A DNA stretch of 64,000 nucleotides from Lachnospiraceae bacterium (lineage in GTDB: Bacteria > Bacillota > Clostridia > Lachnospirales > Lachnospiraceae), in assembly GCA_017441295.1 (NCBI GenBank), contig JAFRYA010000035.1:1-64000 (forward strand), read 5' to 3'. Numbering within the stretch: the stretch's first letter is position 1; each line of letters begins with the position of its first letter. Both the position numbers and the translations under genes were made by a program. A model generated the notes under the pieces. The model did no database searches, had not been told where the DNA came from, and worked only from the letters and a program-made list of their open reading frames with translations. Below, piece by piece: positions 22,169-46,109 of this stretch.

Positions 22169-22669
22169 TTAATTTTTATTTTCCGGAGCTGCACATTCAC
22201 TGTCCAGTCCCAGTAAAATTTCGATGCCGTGCTTAAGAGGCTTGATAACGGCCTCCAGGTTCTCGACTGCTGCTTTCGGACTGCCCGGAAGCGTAATAAT
22301 AACGCTTTCGTCCCTTATTCCCGCATTTGCTCTGGAAAGCCATGCCTTGTCTGTGATCTGTGCACTGGCCAGGCGCATTGCCTCGCCAAATCCAGGGATC
22401 ATCCTCTGGCATACTGCCTGGCATGCCTCAGGAGTGACGTCTCTCTTTGAAAAGCCGGTTCCTCCTGTGCTGACGATCAATGTGATCTTCTGATCTGCCA
22501 GTTTAATGAACTCTGCTTCAATCTGGTCTTTTTCGTCGGGAATAATGTTTGTATAAACTACTTCATATCCGTTTTCGGATAAAAAAGAAGAAACCCTTGG
22601 GCCTGACTTGTCTTCTCTGAGCCCCTGGCTTCCTTTGTCACTGATAGTCAATACCGCAGCTTTGAACAT
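22169..22669 (-). CDS. mogA: Molybdopterin adenylyltransferase (MogA/MoaB family)
   Basis: 166 residues from the ATG at 22669, placed there because the conserved MFKAAVLTISDKGSQG begins at it and AAAGGA lies upstream. MogA adenylates molybdopterin before metal insertion by MoeA. Visible: STGGTGFSKRDVTPEA and LPGSPKAAVE, the pterin-binding loops of the MoCF domain. It is separated from modC by about 104 bases that contain two adjacent perfect palindromes, so it may have its own control point inside the operon. Confidence 0.9.
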   Translation of the reverse strand: MFKAAVLTISDKGSQGLREDKSGPRVSSFLSENGYEVVYTNIIPDEKDQIEAEFIKLADQKITLIVSTGGTGFSKRDVTPEACQAVCQRMIPGFGEAMRLASAQITDKAWLSRANAGIRDESVIITLPGSPKAAVENLEAVIKPLKHGIEILLGLDSECAAPENKN

Positions 22670-22680
22670 ATCGCACATCC

Positions 22681-22721
22681 TTTCATAATTCCTATGAAAT
22701 ACTGACAAAATTATTTTGTCA
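22681..22721. promoter_or_regulatory. Two adjacent palindromes upstream of mogA
   Basis: TTTCATA-ATTCC-TATGAAA (22681-22699) and TGACAAAAT-T-ATTTTGTCA (22703-22721) are both perfect. Neither is followed by a T-run, so they look like operator sites for a dimeric regulator rather than terminators. Confidence 0.5.
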
Positions 22722-22773
22722 TATCTCATATTTATTCGCTACTGAGAAATGGTTATGACACTATTATTAAAAA

Positions 22774-23823
22774 TTATTGTTTAAGAAGCAATACCTTTTC
22801 AGGAGGTATTTCTATTATGAGCTTATCAGCACGGATTTTGTTCCACTCAGACTTGTCCAGATCCATCAGAATATATTTAGAGCTGTCCAGGCCATCAGGA
22901 TGCAGCATGATCGAATACGAGAACGGGTTCTCAATTTCACCTGTCACTTTACAACTAAAACTGTTTACTGCAGTGGTATCGTTCTGATCCGCCAGAATAA
23001 TATCATGCATGCGGATTCCCACCGCCTTAATATCATCTGACACCTCAGGAACCATCAGTTCTAATCCCCAATCTTTGGCAAACACCTTGTCTGGCGCTTT
23101 TATATCTATTTCTGAAATGTTTTTGCACCCTGTCAGGATAGCTCCGCCTACAGTCATCGGCTCTGAAAAGACTTCATGCTTTTCTCCCATGCTGCTTAAG
23201 GCGCCGTTTTCCATAACAGCTATATTATCTGTCAGCCTGAACACCTCATCCCTGTCATGAGAGACGAAGATAACTGTGCCGCCAAACTCCTTTATTATGT
23301 TTTCAACCTGACGTTCAGTATTAAATCTCAGATGAGCGTCCAGCGCAGAAAAAGGTTCATCCAGAAGCAGCACCTTGGGTTCATTGACCAGGATCCTCGC
23401 CAGTGCGCACCTTTGCTGCTGACCGCCTGAGAGCTGGGATGGCTTCTGGTTTTCGCAGCCGTCCAGATGCAGTCTGGAGAGCATTTCCATGGCCCTCTGT
23501 TTCTTCTCTGCTTTGCTGCCGACTCTTACTCCGCATATAACATTCTGGAGAGCAGTCATATTTGGGAAAAGCGCGTACTGCTGGAAGAGATATCCTACCT
23601 GTCTTTTCTGTGGTTTCAGGTCTATATGTTTCTCTGAGTCGAAAAGAACAGTATCATCCAGGACTATCCTGCCTCTGTCAGGCTTTTCAATGCCGGCTAT
23701 GCACTTTAAAGTCATACTTTTGCCGCAGCCGGACGCGCCAAGAATAGCCAGCACTTCACTGCCGGCTTCAAACTTTACTTTCAGAGTAAAGCTGCTCAGA
23801 TGCTTTTCAATATCAACTGACAG
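22774..23823 (-). CDS. modC: Molybdate ABC transporter ATP-binding protein
   Basis: ATPase of the molybdate importer. Walker A GASGCGKS, Q-loop FQQYALFPN, signature LSGGQQQRC, Walker B VLLLDEPFSALD, H-loop VSHDRDE, then a C-terminal domain. The first ATG or GTG in frame (GTG at 23754) would leave Walker A only five residues from the N-terminus and remove the essential first strand. The frame stays open upstream and encodes LSVDIEKHLSSFTLKVKF, the normal ModC beginning, so the start must be a CTG at 23823 or ATA at 23829. An AAAGGAAGG site lies just upstream. Overlaps modB. Confidence 0.9.
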   Translation of the reverse strand: MSVDIEKHLSSFTLKVKFEAGSEVLAILGASGCGKSMTLKCIAGIEKPDRGRIVLDDTVLFDSEKHIDLKPQKRQVGYLFQQYALFPNMTALQNVICGVRVGSKAEKKQRAMEMLSRLHLDGCENQKPSQLSGGQQQRCALARILVNEPKVLLLDEPFSALDAHLRFNTERQVENIIKEFGGTVIFVSHDRDEVFRLTDNIAVMENGALSSMGEKHEVFSEPMTVGGAILTGCKNISEIDIKAPDKVFAKDWGLELMVPEVSDDIKAVGIRMHDIILADQNDTTAVNSFSCKVTGEIENPFSYSIMLHPDGLDSSKYILMDLDKSEWNKIRADKLIIEIPPEKVLLLKQ

Positions 23824-24493
23824 AGCTATTTGCGGCCTTCCTTTCCTTGCGTTCCAGCAGATTGACTGCCAGCAGCACTACAGCTGAAATCGCAATATTA
23901 ACCAGGACCCATTTGAATGCTTCTGAGTCCTGGTTATTCTTCCATAACGCATATACGGTTGTTGAAATGGTGGCGGTATGACCAGGTATGTAACCGGCGA
24001 TCATACTGGTAGCGCCATATTCGCCCAAAGCCCTGGCGAATGCCAGAACTGTTCCGGCCAGAATTCCCTGACGGCAGTAAGGCAGCCTGATCCGCCAGAA
24101 AATATATGAATTCGACAGACCCAAGGTCTGACCGGAATACATAAGAGTATTGTCGAATGATTCGAAAGCCCCTCTGGCGGTCCTGTACATCAGCGGAAAT
24201 ATTACTATAACCGTAACGATTATCGCGGACCACCAGGTCATGGGGATTGTAAAACCAAATATTGTCTGAATGAACTTTCCTATCACTCTTCTCGGCCCTA
24301 CCAGGCGAAGCACCAGATATCCTACTACTGTAGGAGGCAGCACTAATGGAAGCGTCAGAATAACATCCAGTATTCCCTTTATTACTTTAGGAAGCCTGGC
24401 AATATAGTACGCGAAAAAGAGTCCCAGAAAGAAAACCAGTACCGTACTTATCGCAGCTATTCTGAGTGAGTTTAAGAGTGGGAACAGATCCAT
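23813..24493 (-). CDS. modB: Molybdate ABC transporter permease
   Basis: 226 residues with about five transmembrane helices. The cytoplasmic coupling loop ARALGEYGATSMIAGYIPG carries the EAA-like motif of ModB. It forms the membrane channel for molybdate (or tungstate) with ModA and ModC. The start lies one base after the modA stop, and its 3' end overlaps the modC start. Confidence 0.95.
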   Translation of the reverse strand: MDLFPLLNSLRIAAISTVLVFFLGLFFAYYIARLPKVIKGILDVILTLPLVLPPTVVGYLVLRLVGPRRVIGKFIQTIFGFTIPMTWWSAIIVTVIVIFPLMYRTARGAFESFDNTLMYSGQTLGLSNSYIFWRIRLPYCRQGILAGTVLAFARALGEYGATSMIAGYIPGHTATISTTVYALWKNNQDSEAFKWVLVNIAISAVVLLAVNLLERKERKAANSSVS

Positions 24494-24494
24494 A

Positions 24495-25370
24495 TCAGTT
24501 TAATGCCTTGAATCCTACTGATTCAAAAATGGCTTTTGCTGTATCGCCCTTGAGATACTCAAGGAAAATCTGAGCGACTTCAGCGTTTTCACCTGTTTTG
24601 ATGAGTGCCGCAGGGTAAATTACCTTGCCGCCGGTCATCTCTTCGGTAGCAGTATCTACTGCGGTCAGACCTGCAGAATATGCGTCAGAGCCATAGATGA
24701 CTCCGGCCTGAGCAGTCGCCTCATCTACTGCTGAAGTAACTGCCTTAACATCTTCGCCGTAAGTAATCTTACCTGCCTGAGCCAGGGCTGCTTCATCCAG
24801 TCCCAGATATTCAAATATCTTCTGGGTATAAGCTCCGACAGGAACTGACTCTCCGCCCATAGCGAACAGGAATCCGTCAGTTTCAAACGCTGCCTTCAGG
24901 TCATCAAATGAATTGATATTTGCAGGATTGCCTTCCGGAACTGCCAGAACGCACTGGTTCTCAAGAAGGTCCAGTCTGGTTCCTTCCACTACAAAGTCAT
25001 TGCCGTCTTTATTGACTTCAGGGTCCGCTGTAATATCGATCATATTCATCTGCTTCTTGGCGGCTGAAACGAAAATGTCACATGCGGCGCCCTCAACGAT
25101 CTGGTCCTTAAGAGTTCCTGACGATCCATAGTTTGCTGTGATCTTAATACCCGGATATTCTTTATTGAATTCAGTAATGATCCGGTCCATTGACTCAGTC
25201 AGTGACGCAGCCGCGAATACCACAACATTTCCTTCAATTGTTTCTTCTGTTGCCTCAGGAGTTGTCTCCTCAGGCGTAGTCTGCTCTTCGCCTCCCTTAT
25301 TTCCGGAACAGCCTGCGAGAATAAGCGCAAGCAGACTTAAAACTGCAATAATACTGATTAATTTTTTCAT
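24495..25370 (-). CDS. modA: Molybdate-binding lipoprotein
   Basis: 291 residues. Lipoprotein signal with lipobox LALILAGC (Cys at about residue 21), then an acidic Thr/Glu/Pro linker (EEQTTPEETTPEATEE) and a type-II periplasmic-binding fold beginning VVVFAAASLTESM, the ModA oxyanion loop. Delivers molybdate to ModBC at the outer face of the membrane. Whether molybdate or tungstate is preferred cannot be decided here. Confidence 0.95.
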   Translation of the reverse strand: MKKLISIIAVLSLLALILAGCSGNKGGEEQTTPEETTPEATEETIEGNVVVFAAASLTESMDRIITEFNKEYPGIKITANYGSSGTLKDQIVEGAACDIFVSAAKKQMNMIDITADPEVNKDGNDFVVEGTRLDLLENQCVLAVPEGNPANINSFDDLKAAFETDGFLFAMGGESVPVGAYTQKIFEYLGLDEAALAQAGKITYGEDVKAVTSAVDEATAQAGVIYGSDAYSAGLTAVDTATEEMTGGKVIYPAALIKTGENAEVAQIFLEYLKGDTAKAIFESVGFKALN

Positions 25371-25379
25371 TTTTGCCTC

Positions 25380-26408
25380 CTAATTTGATCCAAAACTACA
25401 GTTTGGAAAATTACAATGTTCACATGACAGGCACAGGCCTCCATGTCCCAGCTTCACAAAATCCTTCTTTTCCAGACGCTCGCCTGATACTATTCTCGGC
25501 AGCATCAGATCAAATATGGTCGCTTTGGCATACATTACGCAGCCTGGCAGTCCCATTACCACCTTGCCATCGTCATAATATCCTAAAAGGAACATGGCTC
25601 CCGGAAGTACCGGTGCACCATAGGTTACAATCCTGGCTCCGCTCTCTTTGATCGCGCCAGGGGTCCTGTCGTCAGGGTCGACGCTCATTCCCCCGGTGCA
25701 GAGGATCATATCCGCATCTGTCTGTCTGGCTTTTGCAATAGCCTCTATAATAGACCCTGTATCGTCTTCGCAGGTCATGTGTTCAATAACTGAAATGTTA
25801 TATCCGGCGAGCTTTTCAACAACTACCGGTGTGAATGTGTCTTTTATCCTGCCCTTTGCCACTTCACTGCCTGTAGTGATAATGCATGCAAGCATCTGCT
25901 TAAACGGTCTGACCTCCAAAATCGGTTTTCCGCTGCAGGAAGCTATGGCCCTGGCAGCGTCCAGTCTGGATTTTTCAATAACCAGCGGCACTACGCGCAT
26001 AGCTGCTATCTTCTCGCCTTTTCGCACACATGTGTTGCTCCTTCTGGTGGCGATGACCATATCGTCAATTGAGTTGACGTCAAACAATGTCTTGGTATCC
26101 ACCTTGAGCAGTCCGTCGCATGTGGCTTTAATCTCTATCTTGCCTTCTGAAGGCTCTGAGGCCTCCATATTCGCGTTAAAACACAGGTCCTTTAGTATTT
26201 CCGCAGCCTCATCTTCATGGAGCATATCGGGCGTTTTCTCCCACACATAGATGTTTTCCTTGCCCATGGAAAGAAGCATCGGAATATCTTCTTCAGTAAC
26301 AATATGTCCTTTCTTGAACTGCGGTCCCTTCATCTCGCCGCGAACAATCCTTGTCATGTCATGGCAGAGCACGTGCCCTGCCGCATCTTCAGTCCTGATC
26401 AGCTTCAT
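25380..26408 (-). CDS. Molybdopterin-binding MoeA-like protein with Cys-rich tail
   Basis: 342 residues from the ATG at 26408, which overlaps the moaC stop (ATGA). The centre holds a MoCF_biosynth domain: [33 protein letters not shown], and [16 protein letters not shown]. Unlike MoeA it lacks the long N-terminal substrate domains of the classical protein and ends with a cysteine cluster [15 protein letters not shown] that could bind a metal or Fe-S cluster. A MoeA proper is encoded separately upstream, so this is a second MoeA-type protein, perhaps for a variant cofactor. Function unproven. Confidence 0.8.
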
Positions 26409-26890
26409 TTCTCTTCTCCGTAAATATAATGCCCGCTCTTTCCGCCTGATTTTTCCAGGAGATGAACTTCTTCGATCCTGATATCCCTCTGTACAGCCTT
26501 GCACATGTCATAGATAGTCAGTGCCGCAATAGAAACTGCTGTCAGAGCCTCCATCTCAACGCCTGTCTGGCCTGTGCATTTGCATACTGACGTTATCTGG
26601 ATCATGCATTCATCGTCATTTAATTCAAAATCAATATCCACTCCGGTGATCATGATCGGATGGCACATAGGGATCACGTCACTGGTCCGTTTGGCACCCA
26701 TTATGCCGGCCACCTGAGCAACTGCCAGAACATCTCCCTTTTTCATCTTGCCTTCTTTGACCAGTTCATAAGTCTCTCTGTTCATATAAACGCTGGCTGT
26801 TGCTTTAGCCACACGCTCGGTCTCCGCTTTGGCTGAAACGTCAACCATCCTGGCTCTGCCTGATTCATTGAAATGAGTAAGTTCTGCCAT
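26405..26890 (-). CDS. moaC: Cyclic pyranopterin monophosphate synthase
   Basis: 161 residues, usual MoaC length. With MoaA it converts GTP to cyclic pyranopterin monophosphate, the first step of molybdenum cofactor synthesis. Motifs: [15 protein letters not shown] and [20 protein letters not shown], which carry the active-site His and Lys/Asp residues. It lies one base from the moaA stop and overlaps the next gene by four bases. Confidence 0.96.
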
Positions 26891-26891
26891 G

Positions 26892-27851
26892 TCATCCTCC
26901 TATCTGATTCATGTTCCTGTCCGAACTGCTCGGATTGGAAACGCTTAGATCATAATTTCTTGGTTTGTTTTTTATTTCATTGATGATCGCCTCCCTGAGA
27001 GCATCGCCCTCCAGATCGATCACTGATGTTTCTTTATTGGAATGCAGGCATGCCTTCAGCTTGCCGTCAGCTGTCAGCCTGAGCCTGTTGCAAGTTGAGC
27101 AGAAATGATTGCTCAGCGGGCTGATGAGTCCGACCATGCCTTTATATCCCGGAATATTATATAAATGAGCCACTCCGCTCTCACCGCATGGTACCAGTTC
27201 TGGCACCTTCTCAAGCACGGTGCTGTTCGGAATAAATGTAGCTTTGTCCCAGCTTTTGGCCTCTCCGATAGGCATCAGTTCAATAAACCTGACCTGGAAG
27301 TCTTCGTCTCTGGTCAGTTCAACCAGAGATCTGATCTCATCATCATTTACACCTCCCAACAGAACGGTATTGATCTTGATGGTCCCAAAACCTTCCTTCT
27401 TGGCTGCTTCAATTCCTTCAAATATCTGCTTGATCGGATGTTCTGAGCAGGCGCATCTGGTAAGCTTTTTATACTTTTCTTCATCCAGCGTATCGAGGCT
27501 CACATTTAACCGGTCAACCCCTGCCAGCTTGAGGTCATGCGCGTATTTTTTCAGTAAGATGCCGTTTGTGGTAATGCACAGCTCCTCAATGCCCGGAATA
27601 GCAGAAATCCTATGGCAAATTTCAATAATGCCCCTTCTGACCAGCGGCTCGCCCCCTGTCAGCCTGACCTTTCTGGTACCCAGATCTGCGCATATCTTCA
27701 CTATTTCCTCAATCTTATCAACACTGATTATCCTGCTGTGATCGGCCTTTTCAACGCCGTGTTCAGGCATGCAGTATGTGCATCTCAGATTACACAGATC
27801 TGTAACCGAAACCCTTAAATAATCAATGCTTCTGTCATAACTGTCTCTCAT
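26892..27851 (-). CDS. moaA: GTP 3',8-cyclase (radical SAM)
   Basis: 319 residues. Radical SAM cluster [13 protein letters not shown] near the N-terminus, a second cluster in [10 protein letters not shown] plus ACLHS, and the C-terminal Gly-Gly (QIGG) that enters the active site. Converts GTP to 3',8-cyclo-H2GTP for molybdenum cofactor synthesis. Overlaps the mobB-moeA fusion by 17 bases. Confidence 0.96.
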
Positions 27852-29589
27852 AAATAACCTCTATTAATTCTCCTGCCAAAGGCTGCTGTCCCGGCTTAAT
27901 AATACCTACGGAATCGCTTTTGGCGTTTGCTTTGGTTGTGCCGTTTCCCGCTATTTTATTAGGCAGGAAAATGGCTTCTCCATTTTCTATTATCACCCTG
28001 CCGCGGATAAATCTTCCGCCGGGGCTTTTCTTCTTAATATCTTCACCCAGTTTCATTTTGGAAATAACCGGTAACGGACGGCATACACCTTCCAGTCTTC
28101 TGATAAGGGTCTTGCCAAACATGGTCATCGACATGGCCGCAGCTGAAGGATTGCCTGACAGACCGATTACCGGCCTGCCATTATATACTGCTGCCACAAA
28201 GGCCATTCCGGGCTTCATGCTGACCTTCCAGAAAAGAATTTCGGCGCCGATCATTTTCAAGGCGCTGATAACCAGGTCGTAGTCTCCTACAGACACCCCT
28301 CCTGTTGTAAATACTATATCAGAAGTACCGGAGGCCTTTATGATTGCTTTGGCTATCTCTTTCTCATCGTCAGATACAATGCCGTAATTAACTGCCTTCG
28401 CGCCGGCCTCCTCAGCCATGGCGCCTATTGTATAAATCGAGGAATTCCTGATCTTGCCATTAGGCAGTTCAGGTTCATCTGCATCAACCAGTTCGCTGCC
28501 TGTACTGAGCACCGCTGCAACAGGTTTTCTGTACACATTTACGCTGGCATATCCCAGCATAGCCAGAAGTCCTGCCTCAAAAGGTCCTATTCTGTTTCCT
28601 TTTTCAATCAGCAGTTCTCCTTTATGGTAATCCTCGCCGATAGGAACTACATTAGTATCCGCTTCATACTCTCTTGTAATAGTGAGAAGATCATCTTTAA
28701 CAGTACATACTTCGAATTTCTCTACAACATCAGCATTTTCAGGCAGAGGGGCTCCTGTTAATATCTTGGCCGCCTCACCCTTTTTAAGCGCATGCTCAGG
28801 GCTTTTGCCTGCAGGTATTTCCTCAACTATTTTGAAAGTGACAGGGTGTTCTCTGTCAGCCCCCTTGGTATCCTCATGGTTAAACGCGTATCCATCCAAA
28901 GGAGACCTTCTGAATGGCGGGAAATCCATTTCAGAAAGGCAGTTTTCAGCAGAAACCCTGCCGAAAGCTTCGTTTATATCCACATATTCTGTCTCAGGTT
29001 CAAGCGGGATGCTTTCAATTATTTCAAATGCCTTTTCCACGCTGACACCCCTTGAGAAATCGTCATTTGATCCAGATTCTGCAAAGCTTTCATCCAGCAG
29101 CCAGTCAGCCACGGCCTTCTCATCATCAAATCCAAATCTGACCGGATGCTTAAGATTGTCATCATCCGTAATCAGAGCTGCCAGATTTTTAACATCTACA
29201 GACAATCCTTTACCAGTGGCAACTCTGGATACTCCGATCTTAGGTATGGAACTTTCTCTGCATCCTTCGACAATTACTACATCGCTGCCTTCAGCCATAT
29301 TGATCAGCTCGTCCAATTTGGCCAGGCCGATCTTTTCAGTGCCATACGAAGAAACAACCGCGTAATTATTCTTTGAGAAAATAGAAACAAAGCCGGCTCC
29401 TGCCTGTTTATATCTGAATGTGTCCTTGCCTTCTTTGTCTATATCAAATTTATGGGCGTCATGTTTTATAACAGCAACACTCCTGCCGCGTGATTTCAGC
29501 TCTTTTATGAGTTTCTCTATGAACGTGGTCTTGCCGCTGCCTGAATATCCAACAAATGAAGTTATTATCTGGTTTCTGTATTTCTGCAT
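27835..29589 (-). CDS. MobB-MoeA fusion: molybdenum cofactor guanylylation adapter and molybdenum insertase
   Basis: 585 residues from the ATG at 29589, chosen because AGGAG stands 9 bases before it; the in-frame ATG at 29655 would translate the riboswitch region. Residues 1-165 are a MobB P-loop domain (GYSGSGKTTFIEKL, VIVEGCRESSIPK), a GTP-binding helper of MobA. Residues about 175-585 are MoeA, which inserts metal into adenylated molybdopterin (SPLDGYAF, FTTGGVSVGDYD, LSGNPSAA). The fusion is known in Clostridia. First gene of the operon, controlled by a Moco-type riboswitch. Confidence 0.93.
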   Translation of the reverse strand: MQKYRNQIITSFVGYSGSGKTTFIEKLIKELKSRGRSVAVIKHDAHKFDIDKEGKDTFRYKQAGAGFVSIFSKNNYAVVSSYGTEKIGLAKLDELINMAEGSDVVIVEGCRESSIPKIGVSRVATGKGLSVDVKNLAALITDDDNLKHPVRFGFDDEKAVADWLLDESFAESGSNDDFSRGVSVEKAFEIIESIPLEPETEYVDINEAFGRVSAENCLSEMDFPPFRRSPLDGYAFNHEDTKGADREHPVTFKIVEEIPAGKSPEHALKKGEAAKILTGAPLPENADVVEKFEVCTVKDDLLTITREYEADTNVVPIGEDYHKGELLIEKGNRIGPFEAGLLAMLGYASVNVYRKPVAAVLSTGSELVDADEPELPNGKIRNSSIYTIGAMAEEAGAKAVNYGIVSDDEKEIAKAIIKASGTSDIVFTTGGVSVGDYDLVISALKMIGAEILFWKVSMKPGMAFVAAVYNGRPVIGLSGNPSAAAMSMTMFGKTLIRRLEGVCRPLPVISKMKLGEDIKKKSPGGRFIRGRVIIENGEAIFLPNKIAGNGTTKANAKSDSVGIIKPGQQPLAGELIEVIYERQL

Positions 29590-29594
29590 AAAAA

Positions 29595-29651
29595 ATATCT
29601 CCTGTAAAAAGGAGATATAAAAGCAGCACAAATAGTGCTTTATACTCCTTT
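29595..29651 (-). promoter_or_regulatory. Riboswitch expression platform with mutually exclusive hairpins
   Basis: On the minus strand ATATCTCC (29611-29618) can pair with GGAGATAT (29595-29602), burying the mobB-moeA ribosome site and being followed by TTTTTT. Alternatively the same CTCC segment pairs with AAAGGAG upstream in a longer stem (AAAGGAGTATAAAGCAC, 29635-29651, with 29608-29629), which frees the site. The two folds cannot coexist. Confidence 0.65.
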
Positions 29652-29672
29652 TCAAAGATGGAAGGCATGTTC

Positions 29673-29751
29673 ATTTCTTAGCATACCCTGTGAAGTTTCC
29701 TTCAGGCTTATGGACCATAGCAACGCCTTAGGCACATAAGCTCGGAGAAAT
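29673..29751 (-). ncRNA. Moco (molybdenum/tungsten cofactor) riboswitch aptamer
   Basis: About 80 bases on the minus strand closed by ATTTCT/AGAAAT (P1). Inside are CTCCGAG, a GCTTATG/CATAAGC helix enclosing the GCC-TAA-GGC mini-hairpin and CGTTGC, then a GAAG-GAAA-CTTC hairpin and GGGTATGC. This arrangement and its place before a molybdenum cofactor operon fit the Moco RNA motif as I remember it; I could not run the covariance model. Confidence 0.75.
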
Positions 29752-29769
29752 ATTAATTTTTCTTTTTTC

Positions 29770-29798
29770 AATATATCACAATGGCCAGTGCTTTGCAA
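29770..29798 (-). promoter_or_regulatory. Promoter of the molybdenum operon
   Basis: TTGCAA (29793-29798), 17-bp spacer, TATATT (29770-29775) on the minus strand, about 20 bases before the riboswitch P1. Confidence 0.7.
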
Positions 29799-29805
29799 TA
29801 AAGCC

Positions 29806-31119
29806 TTATCTCAGGCCATCCGTCTCAAATCTGCACATCTGGTTGAGGCAGTTCATCAGGCTCATGTATCGGGCATCCCAGCTGCCGTCTTCAACAACAA
29901 CATCCAGTGAAACCGCAAAATCAGTGATCATCTTGTCCGTCAGCTTGCCTCCGAACTGTCTTAATATCTCACGTTTTCTCTTATAAGAGCGTGCGTCAAA
30001 GAATGCCTCATACAACTCTTCAACAGACGGATCGTCTGCCTTTGAAGCTGCAGCCACAGGCTTCGGTGCAGGTGCAGCTGTCTGCTGCTGTACAGGCTCA
30101 GCAGGCTTTTCTGCCACAGGTTCTCCCTCATAGAATGACCTGACCTTCCTGATGAACTCAAAAGTATTAAGAATATGCGGATTTTCAGCTAATGAATATG
30201 GAGCCATATCCCTCGTGATAAACCCTGCTTCAATACATCTGTAAACAGCATCCTCCATACGTACAGCCCACCTGAACAGCCAGTCATTCCTGTCCATGAT
30301 GCCCCTCATTCTAAGAGCTTTTGTCCATGAAAGAATGGTTGCAACGGAATTTGCTGAAGTTTCTTCGCCGTTCATATGCGCGCTGTACAGTCTCTGTCCC
30401 GTGCTGTGAGCAGCTTCAAAAATGTATTTTCCTGCTGCTGATGCCAGGCATCCTACCATCATTGCAGGCATTGAAAATGCTCCTGAAATAAAACCTGATG
30501 CGATGTCTGCGTCTGCATTTTTCATTGCCCAGATGAATCCGCCTTCTGTTTTAAGAGCCCTGGCAGAGCCTTCTGCAGGAGGCATGAATGAATATGTCAC
30601 ACCCGCTTCATTAAATGATTCCTTAAATTCAGAATCATAAGCCTCATCGAAGGCATCTTTATAAGCAGGCTCCCTGAAGCCTACCCAGAGGTCTTTCTTT
30701 TCAAGAAGCGCATATTCTAAGCAAGATATAGCGTATTCGCGGATACGATCAGCCTGGCATTCCCTGGCCAGTGTTACAGGCTCTTTCCAGCCAGTGATGC
30801 AGGCTCTGATACCTTTGGCAGCTACAGGGGTCTTAAAGTATCCTGCAGCATTAAGGCCTGATGCCAGGGATGTCCTGATTCTGGAAGCATTAACAGTGGC
30901 GCACTTTACACCCACGCCATAACGTTTTACAGCCTCTGCAGCGTCATTTAACACGCTTTCACCAGCCGTGCGCATATTTTCCTGTCCCAGGTCAAAACAG
31001 ACGGATTTCAGGTCAATAAAGGGCTCTGCGAGCTCATCCTTCACCATGTTCCAGATGATACGGGTCATCTCGTCGCCCTGCATTTCCACTATAGGTACCT
31101 GCATCTGAATCTTATCCAT
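29806..31119 (-). CDS. Degenerate isocitrate dehydrogenase paralogue with C-terminal extension (probable pseudoenzyme)
   Basis: 437 residues from the ATG at 31119, which has TTAGGAG upstream; the longer frame would run through the RNase P RNA. Residues 1-320 align with NADP-isocitrate dehydrogenase (VEMQGDEMTRIIW, EGGFIWAMKNADADI, MNGEETSANSVATILSW). The segment that carries the substrate Ser/Arg residues and the clasp is replaced or shortened, the metal site NYDGDVMSD became NADADIASG, and the NADP motif HGTVTRH became HSTGQRL. An Ala/Pro/Gln linker (about 332-360) leads to a helical domain (361-437) that I do not recognise. A true icd lies at 61859-63058. Confidence 0.75.
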   Translation of the reverse strand: MDKIQMQVPIVEMQGDEMTRIIWNMVKDELAEPFIDLKSVCFDLGQENMRTAGESVLNDAAEAVKRYGVGVKCATVNASRIRTSLASGLNAAGYFKTPVAAKGIRACITGWKEPVTLARECQADRIREYAISCLEYALLEKKDLWVGFREPAYKDAFDEAYDSEFKESFNEAGVTYSFMPPAEGSARALKTEGGFIWAMKNADADIASGFISGAFSMPAMMVGCLASAAGKYIFEAAHSTGQRLYSAHMNGEETSANSVATILSWTKALRMRGIMDRNDWLFRWAVRMEDAVYRCIEAGFITRDMAPYSLAENPHILNTFEFIRKVRSFYEGEPVAEKPAEPVQQQTAAPAPKPVAAASKADDPSVEELYEAFFDARSYKRKREILRQFGGKLTDKMITDFAVSLDVVVEDGSWDARYMSLMNCLNQMCRFETDGLR

Positions 31120-31124
31120 ATTTT

Positions 31125-31157
31125 CTCCTAAAAGATAAGCCCATCTGTGAGATGGGC
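31125..31157 (-). terminator. Terminator of rnpB
   Basis: GCCCATCT-CAC-AGATGGGC (31139-31157) followed by TTATCTTTT on the minus strand, between the RNase P RNA 3' end and the isocitrate dehydrogenase paralogue. Readthrough could express the downstream gene. Confidence 0.75.
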
Positions 31158-31170
31158 AATCTGAACTTTC

Positions 31171-31508
31171 GAGCAGGGCTGTAAGCCGGGTTCTGTCTGG
31201 AATGGTCATCTATCTTGTTTTACCGTTGCCGGCAAAATCTTCGCGACCTACCCGGGAACTGGACGGGCCGCCTTATACGTTCCCTGTTTGGTCTTGCTTC
31301 GGATGGAGTTTACATGTGCCCTTCATGTTACCATGGAGGCGGTAGTCTCTTACACTGCCATTTCACCCTTACCGGCACAGCCGGCGGTATATTTCTGTTG
31401 CACTGGTCCTGAGATCACTCTCGCCGGACGTTATCCGGCATCCTGCCCTATGAAGCCCGGACTTTCCTCACAGAGACTGCTCTCTGCGCGACCATTCACC
31501 CTGCTCTT
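31171..31508 (-). ncRNA. rnpB: RNase P RNA, bacterial class A
   Basis: About 338 bases on the minus strand. The 5' GAGCAGGG pairs with the 3' CCCTGCTC (P1). Conserved elements: GAGGAAAGTCCGGGC near the 5' end, the AGTGCAACAGAAA and GGTAAGGGTGAAA core, and ACAGAACCCGGCTTACAG near the 3' end. It is the catalytic RNA that matures tRNA 5' ends. Own promoter and terminator are visible. Confidence 0.97.
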
Positions 31509-45973: not shown

Positions 45974-46003
45974 ATAAACAAACGCCAAAGCGATCTATGT
46001 GAA

Positions 46004-46073
46004 GCCGGTAGTCGTAGCTTATCGGCGCTACGGTAGAAACATTTGGACCATATCTATCCAAACCTATACTGGC
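46004..46073 (-). ncRNA. Guanine-type purine riboswitch
   Basis: About 70 bases on the minus strand. P1 GCCAGTA/TACCGGC, P2 TTTGGA/TCCAAA with loop TAGATATGG, joining TGTTTCTACC, P3 GTAGC/GCTAC with loop GCCGATAA, then GACTAC. The C in GACTAC, at the specificity position, indicates guanine (hypoxanthine) rather than adenine. It controls xpt and the nucleoside transporter. Confidence 0.92.
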
Positions 46074-46109
46074 AGATATTAAATTAAAGTGCAGATTTTC
46101 TACACGAAA

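Follow-up and report, generated by a model that had tools for sequence, protein, structure and literature searches.

A Moco-family riboswitch before a molybdenum operon in a Lachnospiraceae bacterium, with a hairpin that may merge terminator and ribosome site

The window (the whole stretch of DNA analysed, 64 000 nucleotides of contig JAFRYA010000035.1 from a Lachnospiraceae bacterium) contains genes of molybdenum cofactor (Moco) synthesis and molybdenum transport, all on the same strand and preceded by a riboswitch. The genes, from the riboswitch onward, are:

27835-29589, - strand, mobB-moeA fusion gene, 584 aa, ATG start (Pfam MobB and MoeA_N)
26892-27851, - strand, moaA (TIGR02666 above cut-off)
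26405-26890, - strand, moaC (TIGR00581 above cut-off)
25380-26504, - strand, MoeA/MogA-like molybdopterin-binding protein (PF00994; frame as listed)
24495-25370, - strand, modA, molybdate-binding protein (TIGR01256 above cut-off)
23813-24493, - strand, modB (TIGR02141 above cut-off)
22774-23754, - strand, modC-like ATPase (below the modC cut-off)
22169-22729, - strand, mogA/moaB-like protein (PF00994; TIGR00177 above cut-off)

The best NCBIfam model for the mobB-moeA product is the MobB/MoeA fusion, which scores below cut-off, and the mobB model TIGR00176 is above its own. A start at TTG 29655 was rejected: the 606-aa frame is open, yet no ribosome site is seen upstream by eye, and the MobB domain match begins at residue 10 of the protein that starts at ATG 29589. 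The true start of the MoeA/MogA-like gene is probably further in. Elsewhere in the genome there is a weak match to MoaE, above cut-off, and the domain search of the genome found no MoCoBD_1. The gene upstream of the riboswitch (29806-31209, - strand) has an isocitrate-dehydrogenase-like part (Pfam Iso_dh, matched only over profile positions 234-347) and a C-terminal part rich in proline and alanine; its frame as listed overlaps RNase P RNA (31166-31507), so its true start is probably further in as well. The window also holds a purine riboswitch (RF00167, 50.1 bits; 45989-46091, - strand), followed by a 191-aa xanthine phosphoribosyltransferase-like frame and then a basic-membrane-protein-type lipoprotein (both named by eye).

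The leader of mobB-moeA matches the Rfam covariance model of the Moco/Tuco family (RF01055) with 87.4 bits against a gathering threshold of 36 (E = 6.2e-20), covering the model in full (1-135) with all stems present. An earlier note on this DNA, made from the sequence alone, had named this riboswitch class and proposed a covariance search, and the match bears it out. No further copy was found in the 1.99-Mb assembly (90.5% complete), and the leader has no match among plasmid records; one genus-mate genome has five RF01055 matches. The elements of the leader, 5' to 3', are:

29770-29798, - strand, promoter-like TTGCAA-17-TATATT, TG preceding the -10 (agrees with the consensus at 9 of 12 positions)
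29629-29759, - strand, Moco/Tuco aptamer, RF01055 (covariance-model match, model 1-135)
29744-29747, - strand, CUCC1, 5' strand of aptamer stem P1 (RF01055 alignment)
29706-29741, - strand, P2 with CCUAAG...UAUGG (RF01055 alignment and fold)
29691-29704, - strand, P3, UGAAG-GAAA-CUUCA (RF01055 alignment and leader fold)
29662-29689, - strand, P4 with GAAA loop (RF01055 alignment and leader fold; mismatches in the upper stem)
29645-29648, - strand, GGAG1, 3' strand of P1 (RF01055 alignment), inside AAAGGAG 29645-29651
29607-29652, - strand, anti-P1 stem, AAAAGGAG (29652-29645) with CUCCUUUU (29614-29607) and further pairs (ligand-free state in folds)
29611-29614, - strand, CUCC2 (located in the sequence)
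29595-29618, - strand, off-hairpin AUAUCUCCU-UUUUAC-AGGAGAUAU (-10.5 kcal/mol), covering the ribosome site
29599-29603, - strand, AGGAG, the mobB-moeA ribosome site, with 9 bases to the AUG (GGAG2 = 29599-29602)
29590-29595, - strand, U-run (six U), adjoining the AUG
29587-29589, - strand, AUG of mobB-moeA (located in the sequence)

In the RF01055 alignment both the GAAA loop on P4 and the CCUAAG/UAUGG element of P2, which in sequence corresponds to the 11-nt GAAA-tetraloop receptor, are in place, with the upper P4 mismatched. The promoter described as strong in the earlier note is there as a sequence, 10 bases upstream of the aptamer match; 3.1 such matches are expected by chance in a 2-kb stretch, so the count does not set it apart, and what makes it a candidate is its place just before the aptamer.

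Two mutually exclusive stems can form downstream of the aptamer, as the earlier note had read from the letters, and CUCC2 is the segment for which they compete. In the off-hairpin it pairs with the ribosome site of mobB-moeA, just as that note had it. The stem has nine pairs, of which just three are G-C, few for a terminator, and is followed by the U-run up to the AUG; an independent scan chose it as terminator-like, a property of which the note mentions the T-run alone. With the start codon assigned by rule, the hairpin ends 5 nt before the ATG and holds AGGAG within its 3' arm. In the anti-P1 stem CUCC2 pairs instead with AAAGGAG. This had been taken for a decoy added upstream: the pairing holds, but the RF01055 alignment places its GGAG in the 3' strand of P1, so that it is part of the aptamer and not an extra element. 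GGAG1 was also considered as a working ribosome site, in the manner of genus-mates, and rejected, there being no ATG 5-12 bases from it.

Both stems are real and above the level of shuffled sequences. Pairing of the P1 3' strand to the platform gives -13.7 kcal/mol, a value that 15 of 2000 dinucleotide shuffles reach; folded on itself, the platform gives -16.9 kcal/mol (0 of 2000), and no shuffle out of 2000 reaches both jointly. Folding z-scores are -4.6 for the whole leader and -5.5 for the platform. The order AAAAGGAG-CTCCTTTT-GGAG is found once in the 64 kb, against no occurrence in 100 shuffles, for a pattern composed after the site had been seen.

In the energy models the outcome depends on P1. 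If P1 is enforced, the off-hairpin forms with a probability of 1.0 from the moment of its transcription. With P1 free, and with transcripts ending from 29606 to 29586 (the polymerase crossing the U-run), anti-P1 has 0.99 and the off-hairpin at most 0.01. Up to the AUG, the fold with P1 and off-hairpin has -47.0 kcal/mol against -52.2 kcal/mol for the ligand-free fold; binding of the ligand could make up this difference of 5.2 kcal/mol. In the ligand-free full leader, the off-hairpin has 0.58 and anti-P1 0.42, and the ribosome site is unpaired with a probability of 0.04; the platform folded alone prefers a third fold, which retains the off-hairpin. All models without ligand keep the ribosome site 96-100% paired, either to the 5' strand of P1 or, in longer transcripts, by a return to the off-hairpin. 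The ON state would thus depend on co-transcriptional timing, and is the weak point of the scheme: the models support it at the transcriptional level and leave it unproven for translation. The claim that the anti-P1 stem turns translation on is accordingly the weakest one of the earlier note, even though the stem itself stands.

RF01055 was looked for in four overlapping sets of genomes: among the relatives 30 of 195 carry it, and the figures are 28 of 397 for the family, 44 of 392 for the order and 54 of 391 for the class. The loci surveyed are a subset, taken mainly in score order from these lists, and the counts cover those with a profile-HMM hit, which leaves out weak Rfam matches among others; a simple rule set the start codons, and a pattern anchored P1. 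From 179 profile hits we obtained 168 distinct aptamers (10 duplicates and one short hit were dropped, and 13 were anchored by fallback). The sorting rule gives 100 with a terminator-like hairpin and 20 that are direct, their start lying no more than 20 nt from the P1 3' strand (some of these are doubtful TTG starts); six are flagged as dual and 42 are neither. A complement (a run of at least six bases) to the aptamer's own P1 3' strand lies downstream in 89 out of 148 non-direct aptamers, against 22 in a control of one mononucleotide shuffle. In a set of 109 distinct aptamers (eight duplicates dropped, six not anchored), 70 have a terminator-like hairpin whose 5' part could be paired with their own and with others' P1 3' strands: the own strand pairs better than the mean of the others in 55 (p = 5e-7, too small a value given the non-independence of related sequences), and none of 2000 permutations has as good a summed energy. 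For the off-hairpin studied here, 13 of 56 foreign P1 strands pair as well or better, because AAAAGGAG is common. The preference for the own strand points to a family habit of Moco RNAs, the exchange of P1 with a hairpin further downstream, to which this leader would add a twist, the 3' arm of the hairpin doubling as ribosome site.

It is likely that this Moco-family riboswitch turns off an operon of molybdenum-cofactor synthesis and molybdate uptake, and, by the anatomy of the leader, very likely that it does so through the exchange of P1 and anti-P1. With the cofactor bound, P1 (CUCC1 with GGAG1) would be stabilised and GGAG1 held in it, leaving CUCC2 free to form the nine-pair hairpin with GGAG2; this hairpin would keep ribosomes out and, followed by the U-run, would most likely also end transcription just before the AUG. 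With the cofactor absent, GGAG1 would leave P1 and pair with CUCC2, and if anti-P1 is present while the polymerase passes, the off-hairpin could not form and the operon would be transcribed. Since GGAG1 is the P1 3' strand, the OFF response to ligand follows from the anatomy, which puts the earlier note's guess in that direction on firmer ground. Given OFF by exchange, we lean towards control at both levels, transcription and translation; control mainly of translation is possible though rather unlikely, and control mainly of transcription somewhat less likely again.

The off-hairpin is best read, by analogy, as the 'dual' transcription/translation platform of Barrick and Breaker 2007, in which the terminator is so near the gene that the 3' side of the hairpin contains the ribosome site, with at most 10 nt from hairpin to start codon (PMC2258182). 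Here the distance is 5 nt and the ribosome site lies in the 3' side, as found with our own scan where PMC2258182 used the program Rnall. For the dual type the part of that paper drawn on cites TPP riboswitches from earlier work and holds no Moco example; among the titles and abstracts found in searches of open-access literature, none describes a dual platform on a Moco RNA. The leader is confirmed as a well-formed member of a known riboswitch class, and its platform reads as a known, less common type.

The Moco RNA of E. coli is an OFF switch (PMC2408646), and its moaABCDE leader shares with ours P1-P4 including P3, the GAAA loop and receptor, the control of Moco synthesis and a purine-rich, ribosome-site-like P1 3' strand. 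In E. coli the ribosome site lies inside P1 (PMC2408646), whereas here the P1 strand would act as antisequestor and a second GGAG is the ribosome site. Transcription termination has been reported for the E. coli switch too (TaRTLEt 2025, PMC12121620), CsrA acts on the E. coli aptamer (PMC7652899), and terminators occur in other Moco RNAs according to Regulski 2008 (PMC2408646).

The alternative that fares best, while still unlikely, is that the switch acts on translation only, the off-hairpin hiding a ribosome site that it covers exactly (AGGAG) and being too AU-rich for termination with its three G-C pairs. The U-run follows the stem immediately, however, and a terminator-like hairpin is found in 100 of the 168 distinct Moco RNAs sampled; the leader of another mobB-moeA gene (L008) has one too.

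We consider it doubtful that, conversely, only transcription is controlled, with the overlap of hairpin and ribosome site a by-product of compactness and translation alike in both states. CUCC1 pairs with GGAG2 with a probability of 0.64-0.97 in transcripts ending at 29596-29586, so that the ribosome site of the ligand-free leader is paired as well. But this five-pair helix closes a loop of ∼140 bases and is easily over-rated by nearest-neighbour multiloop terms, its probability drops to ∼0.2 in longer transcripts, and CUCC1 would find a partner in any ribosome site with GGAG, so the pairing is no mark of selection. Just as doubtful is a swap of partners among four segments, in which the ribosome site would be paired with CUCC2 when cofactor is present and with CUCC1 when it is not; if true, the decision would fall at transcription, and translation would stay low in both states or answer to a third input.

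As to the ligand, both P3 and the molybdate-type transporter favour Moco. The tungsten cofactor would be an improbable ligand: the genome has four AFOR_C matches, presumably to a family of tungsten enzymes, beside four Molybdopterin-oxidoreductase matches, but modA and modB are above the cut-offs of molybdate models, and the P3 stem UGAAG-GAAA-CUUCA is present, P3 marking the Moco rather than the Tuco type (Regulski 2008, PMC2408646). An ON switch, with anti-P1 favoured by the cofactor, is very improbable, as we found nothing for it except the closeness of the two states in ligand-free energies, and against it anti-P1 uses up the P1 3' strand that the aptamer requires, the operon is biosynthetic and the related RNA of E. 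coli switches expression off (PMC2408646).

Under the favoured reading, OFF control by exchange at both levels, relatives put one ribosome-site-like P1 strand to three uses (ribosome site, antiterminator and antisequestor), and in this leader it would be the antisequestor of a hairpin merging terminator and ribosome site. Being compact, the leader lends itself to testing whether dual platforms control transcription and translation alike; beyond the platform, the annotation is an ordinary one, a Moco-controlled molybdenum operon. Among the loci whose first gene is MobB, three from genus-mates (L010, L011 and L020) also have a Moco RNA upstream of mobB, but there the P1 3' strand is the ribosome site, its first G 9-11 nt from the ATG, and the P2-P4 interval seems by eye too short for P3. 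L008, from another genus of the family, resembles our leader in its P3-bearing Moco aptamer and terminator-like hairpin before mobB-moeA, and differs in that its ribosome site (AAGGAG before an ATG) is separate, ∼20 bases past the U-run. A scan for MobB-MoeA gave six loci, none matched by the Moco profile HMM, and in 14 genomes of the genus the only end-to-end match to MobB-MoeA is the leader's own protein. No second genome with the exact platform was found among the relatives.

The dual platform seems rare in our sample and apparently recurrent. Besides the leader itself (L001), the rule flagged five loci. L008, L069 and L121 are distrusted for their TTG starts, L008 having a better ATG further on. 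L138 has an off-hairpin nearly identical to that of the leader, and a second ATG in frame, behind GGGGG, points to a start further on; L209 has a GTG start by rule. L018 looks dual by eye and went unflagged owing to a bulge in its hairpin. In seven other loci (L002, L063, L117, L127, L128, L131 and L132) GGATTTGG or GGATTGGA follows the P1 A-run, with a CCAAA-type sequence shortly upstream of a strong ribosome site; these may represent another kind of translational platform. Tandem Moco-family aptamers, known from other species, lie on one strand in L045 (1267-1602) and L152 (509-1298).
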